Assembly: GCA_002308815.1 (NCBI GenBank)
Contig: DBVX01000086.1
Coordinates: 19,131 to 24,527, forward strand
Reading direction: 5' to 3'
DNA: 5,397 nt
DNA from: Bacteroidales bacterium UBA1253
Lineage (GTDB): Bacteria > Bacteroidota > Bacteroidia > Bacteroidales > Paludibacteraceae
Position 1 is the stretch's first letter. Every line of letters starts with the position of its first letter. Position numbers and translations under genes: made by a program. Positions 4,240-5,397 of the stretch are shown here, in pieces. The notes beneath the pieces were generated by a model, which saw nothing but the letters and a program-made list of their open reading frames with translations, made no database searches and was not told the DNA's origin.

Positions 4240-4241
4240 TA

Positions 4242-4311
4242 GTTTATATGTTTATGGGTTTATAAGTTTATTTGTGGTTGAATTAGTTAATGAGTTTATA
4301 GGGTTTAACAG
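4242..4311. repeat. Left octamer array (GTTTATNN-type units), inverted relative to the right array
   Basis: On the plus strand, units begin at 4242, 4250, 4258, 4266, 4277, 4286, 4294 and 4303: GTTTATAT, GTTTATGG, GTTTATAA, GTTTATTT, GTTGAATTA, GTTAATGA, GTTTATAGG and GTTTAACAG. Most are 8 bases and some 9, with a GTG spacer at 4274-4276. On the transcribed strand they read NNATAAAC. The inner four units overlap the end of the four-helix-bundle ORF and its stop codon. GTTTAACAGG (4303-4312) is the perfect reverse complement of 4699-4708, and 4285-4296 is that of 4733-4744. Confidence 0.85.
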
Positions 4312-4687
4312 GCTCACCTTTTTTATTTTCAGGCATATAACTATATTGAAGACCAGTCAGCAATCTGGCAACTTGCACAACAATCAACTCGATGTTTTGC
4401 ATATCGGTTGACTGGATATACCCTATATTATAAGCTGTTTCTATCTGACTCATCACTTCCATTAGCGAGCCATAAGAAATCTCTAAAAAGTGAATTTTAT
4501 CCTTGTAGGAATAACGTGTTACCCCTTCGGCTATATTGGATGTAATAGATGTTGCTGCACGGCGAAGTTGGCTGCACAAAGCGAACTGTTCCTCTTTAGG
4601 GAATTTCTTTAATAAAACGTAGATGGACTGAACCAATTCTTGCGCCTTATTATATGCCTCCAACTTTCTGTACCCCAAGTAATCCAT
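4283..4687 (-). CDS. Four-helix-bundle protein, S23 / 23S rRNA intervening-sequence family
   Basis: The 134-residue product matches the TIGR02436-type four-helix-bundle family, which is encoded in 23S rRNA intervening sequences and also by stand-alone genes. The related Avd protein is an accessory factor of diversity-generating retroelements. Visible signatures are the N-terminal YRKLEAYNKAQELV helix (6-19), the hallmark QLRRAATSITSNIAEG (40-55), then FLEISYGSLMEVMSQIETA (67-85) and a final helix near 98-115. Basic residues on the helices suggest nucleic-acid binding, as shown for Avd; the function of this family is otherwise unknown. Length is slightly above the usual 115-125 because of a tail, residues about 126-134 (PVKPYKLIN), encoded by the flanking repeat array. 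The ATG lies inside the other array, in the unit GTTAATGG. The gene is AT-rich and interrupts frdA-frdB. It has no promoter that I can see and is probably co-transcribed with frd. Confidence 0.92.
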   Translation of the reverse strand: MDYLGYRKLEAYNKAQELVQSIYVLLKKFPKEEQFALCSQLRRAATSITSNIAEGVTRYSYKDKIHFLEISYGSLMEVMSQIETAYNIGYIQSTDMQNIELIVVQVARLLTGLQYSYMPENKKGEPVKPYKLIN

Positions 4688-4743
4688 TAACCAATCAACC
4701 TGTTAAACCACCTGTAAACCTATCAACTTATCAACTCATTAAC
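4684..4743. repeat. Right octamer array (NNATCAAC-type units), inverted relative to the left array
   Basis: On the plus strand the units are CCATTAAC (4684), CAATCAAC (4692), CTGTTAAAC (4700), CACCTGTAAAC (4709), CTATCAAC (4720), TTATCAAC (4728) and TCATTAAC (4736). On the transcribed strand they read GTTnATnn and fill all the space between the frdA stop and the four-helix-bundle ATG, which falls inside the last unit. The array can pair with the left array: a 10-bp perfect match (4699-4708 with 4303-4312) and a 12-bp perfect match (4733-4744 with 4285-4296), in collinear order. Confidence 0.85.
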
Positions 4744-5397
4744 TTAATTCTTATAGTTACGTGTCTTGCGTTCGGTGAACTCGTAGTCCAGAGGCTCTTT
4801 GATGAGTTCGGGATCCTGGTCTTCACCTTTGTATTTCCAGCAGGCAACGTAAGAGAACTTGTCATCCTGACGGAGAGCCTCGCCTTCCTCGGTCTGGTAC
4901 TCCTCGCGGAAGTGACCTCCGCAGGACTCCTCGCGGTTGAGCGCGTCAATAGCCATCAGACGTCCTATCTCGATGAAATCTGCCAGACGGAGAGCCTTCT
5001 CCAGCTCGTTGTTGAGCGAATCAGCCTTGCCGGGGATATAGACATTGCTCCAGAACTCTTTCTTGATTGCGTTGATTTTCTCAATGGCTGTTTTCAGCGA
5101 TTGGGCAGTACGTCCCATGCCGACGAAGTCCCACATAACGAGACCCAGTTCCTTGTGGATGCTGTCCACGGAGCGTTTGCCCTGAATCTTCATCAGGCGG
5201 TCAATCTTGTCCTGCACAGCCTTTTCCGCCGCATCAAACTCGGGACGGTCGGTACTCATACGAGCCACACCGATCTGGTCGGCGAGGTAGTTCTGTATGG
5301 TATAGGGCAGAACGAAGTAACCGTCCGCGAGACCCTGCATCAGCGCGGAGGCACCGAGACGGTTCGCGCCGTGGTCGGAGAAGTTCGCCTCACCGAT
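4744..5397 (-). CDS. frdA: Fumarate reductase / succinate dehydrogenase flavoprotein subunit, C-terminal part
   Basis: The frame is open from the window edge (5397) to TAA at 4746-4744, giving the last 217 residues of a protein normally about 650 long. It is the catalytic subunit with covalent FAD that interconverts fumarate and succinate. The visible part starts in the end of the FAD-binding domain: IGEANFSDHGANRLGAS (1-17) is the conserved segment whose arginine (here R13) corresponds to the dicarboxylate-binding R390 of E. coli FrdA. The C-terminal helical domain follows, with NREESCGGHFREEYQ (154-168) and FSYVACWKY (181-189), typical of the Bacteroidetes-type enzyme. An internal ATG at 5340 is not the start, because coding similarity continues upstream of it. 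The cytochrome b gene would be expected further upstream, outside the window. The last base of its TAA stop codon on the plus strand (4744) is also the edge of the flanking inverted repeat. Confidence 0.95.
   Translation of the reverse strand: MGEANFSDHGANRLGASALMQGLADGYFVLPYTIQNYLADQIGVARMSTDRPEFDAAEKAVQDKIDRLMKIQGKRSVDSIHKELGLVMWDFVGMGRTAQSLKTAIEKINAIKKEFWSNVYIPGKADSLNNELEKALRLADFIEIGRLMAIDALNREESCGGHFREEYQTEEGEALRQDDKFSYVACWKYKGEDQDPELIKEPLDYEFTERKTRNYKN
4745..4752. repeat. Right copy of flanking 8-base direct repeat TAATTCTT
   Basis: This is an exact match to 4232-4239. It covers the last codons of frdA (…AAG AAT TA on the coding strand), so one copy is in coding sequence and the other lies directly before frdB. 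It is consistent with a target-site duplication, but it does not prove one. Confidence 0.5.

Follow-up and report, generated by a model that had tools for sequence, protein, structure and literature searches.

What kind of unit separates frdA from frdB in this Bacteroidales genome, and how did it come to lie between two genes of one complex? The window, i.e., the whole stretch of 5,397 nt that was analysed (G000:C37:19131-24527), carries frdA, an S23-family gene, frdB, dnaN, an exonuclease gene and a DUF4954 gene in this order, all on the minus strand. The upstream neighbour is the C-terminal part of frdA, encoding the flavoprotein subunit (4744..5397, PF02910 E 2.8e-37, NF005749 E 6.8e-95), and the downstream neighbour is frdB, encoding the iron-sulfur subunit (3477..4232, NF005746, 418 bits). 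Between them, at 4283..4687, lies the S23-family (four helix bundle) gene, encoding 134 aa and transcribed in the same direction as both neighbours, with spacers of 56 nt to the frdA end (4744) and 50 nt to the frdB start (4232). The protein matches PF05635 (E 3.4e-35, 120.9 bits versus the curated cut-off of 33.8) and TIGR02436 (E 1.6e-31, 108.7 bits versus 24). It is hardly basic (16 K+R, 14 D+E) and is a sequence relative of XCC0516, whose structure has been solved with five chains (2gsc, E 4.1e-21).

The distance from the last sense codon of frdA to the frdB ATG is 514 nt, and this AT-rich insert has a GC content of 0.33-0.42 versus 0.52-0.63 in the adjoining genes. The upstream arm, an AT-rich short tandem array, reaches from the frdA stop to the S23 start (4688..4743, minus strand); the downstream arm is an array in mirror orientation that runs from inside the S23 ORF end to just before frdB (4239..4312, minus strand), the last ~10 S23 codons themselves lying within it. 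Three inverted matches join the arms: 25 nt at 80% (4247-4271/4722-4746), 16 nt at 94% (4285-4300/4729-4744) and 11 nt at 100% (4302-4312/4699-4709). Their score of 15.5 was reached in 0 of 2000 first-order Markov shuffles. Folded as RNA, the element gave a z of -3.9 with the arms paired, and 0 of 100 shuffles were as good. S23 is the sole gene recognised in the element, in which no transposase, integrase or reverse transcriptase was found, and there was no Rfam match at gathering level anywhere in the window. The profiles, the coordinates and the shuffle-tested arms confirm the initial annotation in its description of an S23 gene with inverted arrays between frdA and frdB.

The same annotation had taken the unit for an insert and not for an old operon member, and the distribution of S23 at this junction agrees with it. 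The frdB gene is present in 157 of the 178 genus genomes; 84 frd stretches were examined, including every S23 carrier matched by coordinates, and frdA and frdB occur together in 70. We detected S23 at 11 of these 70 junctions (the window, G012, G014, G151, G145, G092, G116, G126, G098, G091 and G161), which is not a frequency because the sample includes all coordinate-matched carriers. The other 59 junctions across the genus have no S23, the gap being at most 12 nt in 24, 13-60 nt in 28 and 61-150 nt in 3, with other content in 4. One of them belongs to G137, whose FrdB protein is 100% identical to that of the window (flank dS 0.14) and whose spacer is 51 nt long; G016 and G162 (flank dS about 1 from the window) have S23-less frd junctions as well. 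The host-locus tree, based on the frd flanking coding sequence, nests the window and G012 among S23-less relatives, and presence of S23 takes 6 changes on it, at least 4 of them forced by well-supported branches. These results support the window S23 unit being an insert. No target-site duplication was recognised by eye between junctions with and without the element, the spacers differing too much.

Two of the carriers show damaged copies. The G012 copy (flank dS 0.08 to the window) is decayed, net 272 nt shorter with the gap within the S23 gene, and the G091 gene has one internal stop and was counted as broken. The location between two subunits might suggest that the insert tunes frdB output relative to frdA, and other S23 sites, namely nqrD/nqrE, groES/groEL and the small and large methylmalonyl-CoA mutase genes, fit such an idea. 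The patchy presence counts against a required tuning role, as S23 is missing from most frd junctions (59/70) and the G012 copy has decayed, and we regard tuning as highly improbable.

Other arrangements were observed among the frd stretches. L177, L188 and L208 share a different insert of ~250 nt with a similar small ORF in the frdA-frdB gap, and L022 has a 424-nt insert there with yet another small ORF. In 14 of the 84 stretches no frdA adjoins frdB within the stretch (L005, L014, L026, L027, L028, L030, L031, L155, L173, L178, L206, L207, L209, L211); the frd operon may be split or differently ordered in part of the genus.

Synonymous divergence of S23 and of the host genes around it is discordant in both directions. 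At the frd junction, S23 dS is 0.08 in the pair G116-G126 versus 1.23 in the frdA/frdB flanks, 0.04 versus 0.34 in G151-G145, 0.40 versus 0.87 in G151-G092 and 0.53 versus 1.12 in G091-G161; elsewhere, L073 and L075 have 0.01 versus 0.68. The opposite was detected where host genes are close and S23 is diverged: L080/L085 and L096/L098 share 47-50% S23 amino acid identity at flank dS 0.19-0.22, L073 and L086 share 38% at flank dS 0.12 and 0.59, and L080 and L087 share about 50% with L110 and L112 at flank dS 0.24-0.58. Our reading of such diverged S23 genes between near-identical host genes is that a different element probably took the place of an earlier one at the same junction. The mutase site holds several S23 lineages at one junction, and 4 changes are needed there. 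Among all same-site pairs, which are non-independent, S23 exceeds the flanks by more than 5 points of nucleotide identity in 24 of 108 and does not in 84 of 108.

Strictly vertical inheritance was rejected for several pairs by this dS discordance. An old operon gene, vertically inherited and lost many times, is thus very unlikely to be the general explanation: besides the discordance, it must face the at least 4 forced changes on the host tree and the several S23 lineages per junction. The window itself provides what can be said for it. In the S23 tree the window protein groups as sister to that of G014 (100/98), which occupies the same junction, and the protein is under constraint, with dN 0.09-0.11 and a saturated dS of 1.8-3.8 between the window and G092, G145 and G151 and no excess of S23 similarity over the flanks. 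Because of the saturated dS, recent transfer is not indicated by these three pairs.

Our preferred reading, with a probability of roughly 0.55, is that the S23 gene and its two matching arrays constitute a small mobile element that would move between species into the stop-to-start gaps of operons. Several tests agree on mobility of S23 with its arms, and the mobile or parasitic nature suggested by the initial annotation gains backing from the dS discordance, from the apparent element replacement and from the arms that travel with S23 lineages. In terms of known elements, S23 and its arms are likely a mobile, homing-like unit that resembles the intervening sequences (IVS) and occupies gaps in operons rather than 23S rRNA.

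Homologous recombination could produce part of the same picture. According to this alternative the unit has no movement of its own, whole intercistronic junctions are swapped between species by homologous recombination, and fast-growing arrays are spacer material carried along. We analysed identity edge profiles for 14 pairs at six sites, counting 87% or less in the coding flank as a drop. Upstream, the drop comes no further than 60 nt from the gap in 11 of the 13 pairs measured; downstream, this holds for 6 of the 12 pairs measured, and 2 more drop by 90 nt. Such close edges argue against swapped junctions. Certain transfers do reach the flanking genes, as swapping predicts: L042/L045 remains 97-100% identical for about 240 nt on the upstream side, and on the downstream side most bins as far as about 150 nt are at 93-100%; the downstream flank of L037/L038 and L038/L039 stays at 87-97% for 150 nt or more, and the ~98% identity block of G116/G126 extends from the upstream array just past the frdA stop to about 40 nt inside frdB. 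The flanks of L162/L163 and L060/L065 are too alike for placement of an edge, and the arm interiors of L051/L056, L042/L045 and L092/L101 align poorly. The lack of a transposase or reverse transcriptase in the element and the frequent arrays in S23-less spacers are also in line with swapping. The occurrence of the same S23 lineage with its arms at unrelated sites also makes swapping alone rather unlikely, since allelic recombination makes no such copies; L080 (G141), for example, carries 95% identical S23 copies with similar arms, one ahead of the gene for the small mutase subunit and one in the gap between the two mutase genes.

The window element has many counterparts. PF05635 matches were detected in 149 of the 178 genus genomes, up to 11 per genome, and in 232 of the 296 phylum genomes searched. 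The genus set comprises 97 S23 elements at 53 sites, taken from 30 loci and 60 stretches; 99 hits were reduced to 97 by removing L002, a duplicate, and a hit in L071 that lay at the end of its stretch, and placement of eight elements at sites by hand brought 61 sites to 53. The set was drawn from the top-scoring PF05635 matches in the genus and under-represents weak or decayed copies. The named relatives are largely metagenome assemblies, and individual contigs may be chimeric. The S23 gene is co-directional with both neighbours in 86 of the 97. The sites include nqrD/nqrE, the gap before nqrF, the gap between the methylmalonyl-CoA mutase genes, groES/groEL, a MlaE-type permease with its ATPase and the gap before an RND permease. 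Other copies in the window's own genome, as considered in the initial annotation, did not appear: this genome (69% complete) has a single PF05635 match, and it is relatives that have up to 11. An invertible (phase-variable) element was rejected as a candidate, with both neighbours opposed in 0 of the 97 elements; only the upstream neighbour is opposed in 6 and only the downstream one in 3, some of these being mis-called ORFs, and 2 elements lack a neighbour in the stretch.

Inverted arms with a score of at least 12 were found in 61 of the 97 elements (150-nt flanks) and direct arms in 17, both kinds being present in 8. The control of 368 genes in 400 kb of G074 gave 8 inverted and 7 direct cases at this score; it represents one genome with a crude ORF caller and includes S23-type genes, and one of the 8 inverted-arm control genes itself resembles a four-helix-bundle gene. 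With one element per site, inverted similarity was 12.5 versus 7.6 for permuted partners (maximum of 2000 permutations 9.0) and direct similarity was 12.6 versus 7.4 (maximum of 2000 permutations 8.3), so both kinds of pairing are real and the inverted one is the majority. Against between-site swaps, inverted arms were above the 99th percentile in only 6 of the 97 and above the 95th in 40, in a control where swapped arms are shared among related lineages; the permutation means are the more solid result. Not every element has a mirrored pair: direct arms are above the 99th percentile of swaps at 14 of the 53 sites, and 15 of the 97 elements stay below 10 whether scored as inverted or as direct.

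The arms mostly have a 7-nt period. An array is present in 74 of the 97 upstream and 69 of the 97 downstream flanks, versus 49 of 124 co-directional G074 spacers. Short tandem arrays, most often with this period, also occupy 67 of 219 spacers of at least 25 nt in 400 kb of G074 (L122-L141, G074:C15:1-400000). Array-filled spacers being common in these genomes, arrays alone do not mark the element; the mirrored pair around S23 genes stands out as special and the arrays as such are ordinary, which corrects the initial annotation. Mirrored pairs extend to other families of the phylum, where inverted arms scored 12.9 versus 7.9 for swapped arms and at least 12 in 12 of 30 elements versus 3.7% of swaps, these 30 being best-scoring matches. 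For 28 elements from 29 loci (some of the genus, others labelled Deltaproteobacteria, Omnitrophota and Patescibacteria) the values were 13.1 versus 7.4.

L093, L099, L162 and L163 have extra arrays in the downstream-arm orientation directly before the S23 start codon, which by eye suggest duplication or nesting of element ends; some of the direct-arm cases thus look like additional copies of the downstream array ahead of the gene.

Arm similarity between sites tracks S23 protein identity, rising from ~6 at identity below 45% to ~18 above 75%. The S23 elements of the frd junction have two arm types, and the own partner arm beats every arm of the other type in 10 of the 10 elements tested (the decayed G012 copy was excluded). 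Within a type, the own partner is below the mean of its type mates in 7 of 10; being no better than the type mates, it gives no sign of fine pair-by-pair matching. The sister S23 proteins of the window and G014 have different arm types. At the level of sequence comparison we showed that the arms differ between S23 lineages, match within an element and accompany their lineage at the new sites it occupies.

Arms that match within an element could be maintained in DNA or in the transcript. The initial annotation had raised the transcript as a possibility, and the corresponding explanation is an RNA-level intervening sequence, in which a stem formed by the two arms of the frd transcript is cut by RNase III and maintained by selection. 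The gene family and the architecture are shared with the IVS elements of 23S rRNA, the window RNA fold (z -3.9) has its arms paired, and RNA duplexes are more stable for true arm pairs (-42.9 kcal/mol) than for swapped arms (-27.9 kcal/mol). Selection for pairing in the transcript would be expected to leave more G-U pairs than A-C mismatches. We counted 149 G-U versus 200 A-C in 129 elements at 85 sites, a pooled set with possibly a few duplicate elements; by sites the count was 24 versus 37 with 24 ties (p 0.11). The missing excess of G-U lends no support to RNA-level action and favours a DNA-level unit, and the direct arms at 14 of the 53 sites also speak against a maintained stem, so that we consider this explanation improbable.

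A tentative mechanism can be proposed for the DNA-level element. The S23 protein, ring-forming in a relative, would bind its own repeat units and join the element ends; such binding is suggested because protein and arm lineages travel together and a pentameric ring is reported for the family. The exchange would take place at the DNA level, helped by host recombination. The operon gap would tolerate insertion, as the helix loops of 23S rRNA tolerate IVS elements, because no protein is broken there. After arrival the S23 gene would decay and then be lost, as the G012 copy suggests, and cutting of a stem in the frd mRNA by RNase III, if any, would be a mere consequence. No movement event was observed among the data; we infer the manner of movement, and since some transfers take in flanking coding sequence, homologous recombination remains its rival.

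Enzymes acting in trans were also considered. Retro-homing with a resident reverse transcriptase was rejected, as PF00078 matches occur in only 35 of the 178 genus genomes and the S23-rich genomes G063, G070, G074 and G075 have none; the window's own genome (69% complete) has no reverse transcriptase match either. A Y1 transposase acting in trans was likewise rejected: matches at E 0.001 occur in 68 of the 178 genomes and for the most part are weak and partial, and of the S23-rich genomes G063, G070 and G075 have none and G074 has one weak match. MITEs and REPIN/RAYT systems are likewise short, have inverted ends and rely on factors from outside the element. Unlike them, the S23 element has ends that differ by lineage and carries the S23 gene, and strong Y1 matches are rare in the genus. 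The transposons and insertion sequences are defined by a transposase or integrase gene of their own, which the window element does not carry.

The closest known anatomy is that of the Coxiella burnetii IVS. As described in the published account, this 428-nt insert interrupts helix 45 of 23S rRNA, contains an S23 ORF with heptameric GACAGAT repeats ahead of its start codon, has ends that form a stem of 28 bp and is excised by RNase III; in one strain the ORF has lost 176 bp. The account also gives sporadic presence at conserved sites, for which horizontal acquisition was proposed, and a four-helix-bundle homopentamer for the S23 family (PMC4990558). As far as this account goes, the window element and its relatives share with it the S23 ORF, complementary ends, tandem heptamers before the start codon, sporadic presence with horizontal spread and a deletion derivative, and the sizes are similar, so the IVS-like architecture named in the initial annotation holds. 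The differences are that the window insert lies between protein genes of an operon and not in a 23S rRNA helix, that its arms are lineage-specific arrays, that the elements occupy many junctions with up to 11 family matches per genome, and that RNase III excision is a feature of the IVS. Since the anatomy matches but the location differs, and excision is putative here, we call the element IVS-like and not a 23S IVS.

PF05635 also resembles Avd, the accessory protein of diversity-generating retroelements, and often occurs near these, Avd itself being essential to retrohoming, according to PMC10053308. In comparison with this related four-helix-bundle family (Avd/bAvd), the window S23 protein gives only weak hits, below the Avd cut-offs (NF033474 32.6 versus 80, PF22296 30.9 versus 40). 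Unlike the accessory Avd of these retroelements, it has no reverse transcriptase beside it in the window, nor was one found in its own genome. Intergenic heptamer arrays just before start codons (TAACTGA repeats) have been described, some Bacteroidetes included (PMC4679880). The arrays here are like them in being 7-nt tandem arrays before start codons and unlike them in bracketing a gene in mirrored orientation and, by our comparisons, moving with it; a term search of that study's main text gave no hit for S23, intervening sequence or four helix. No description of operon-gap S23 elements flanked by mirrored arrays was found in a search of titles and abstracts, most subscription-journal papers and bioRxiv preprints being outside it.

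Genes of the S23 (four helix bundle) family are widespread in Bacteroidota and still lack an explanation. As a wider hypothesis, which we hold tentatively and with some doubt, free-standing S23 genes across bacterial phyla could be a homing-like element class without transposase or reverse transcriptase, in which the ring protein would recognise the heptamer arrays particular to its lineage, the mirrored arrays would join the ends and the cassette would replace the intergenic gap in new hosts; the IVS of 23S rRNA would then be a branch that settled in rRNA. If this is true, a family of hypothetical proteins becomes a mobile-element class to which the rRNA intervening sequences are tied, and gaps within core complexes (Frd, Nqr, GroES/EL, methylmalonyl-CoA mutase) are repeatedly rewritten in gut bacteria.

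Further genes bracketed by arrays may exist beyond S23. In L124 (G074:C15:45541-46594), a gene that presumably resembles the YhcG/DUF1016-type nucleases is bracketed by direct arrays with a score of 29.5.
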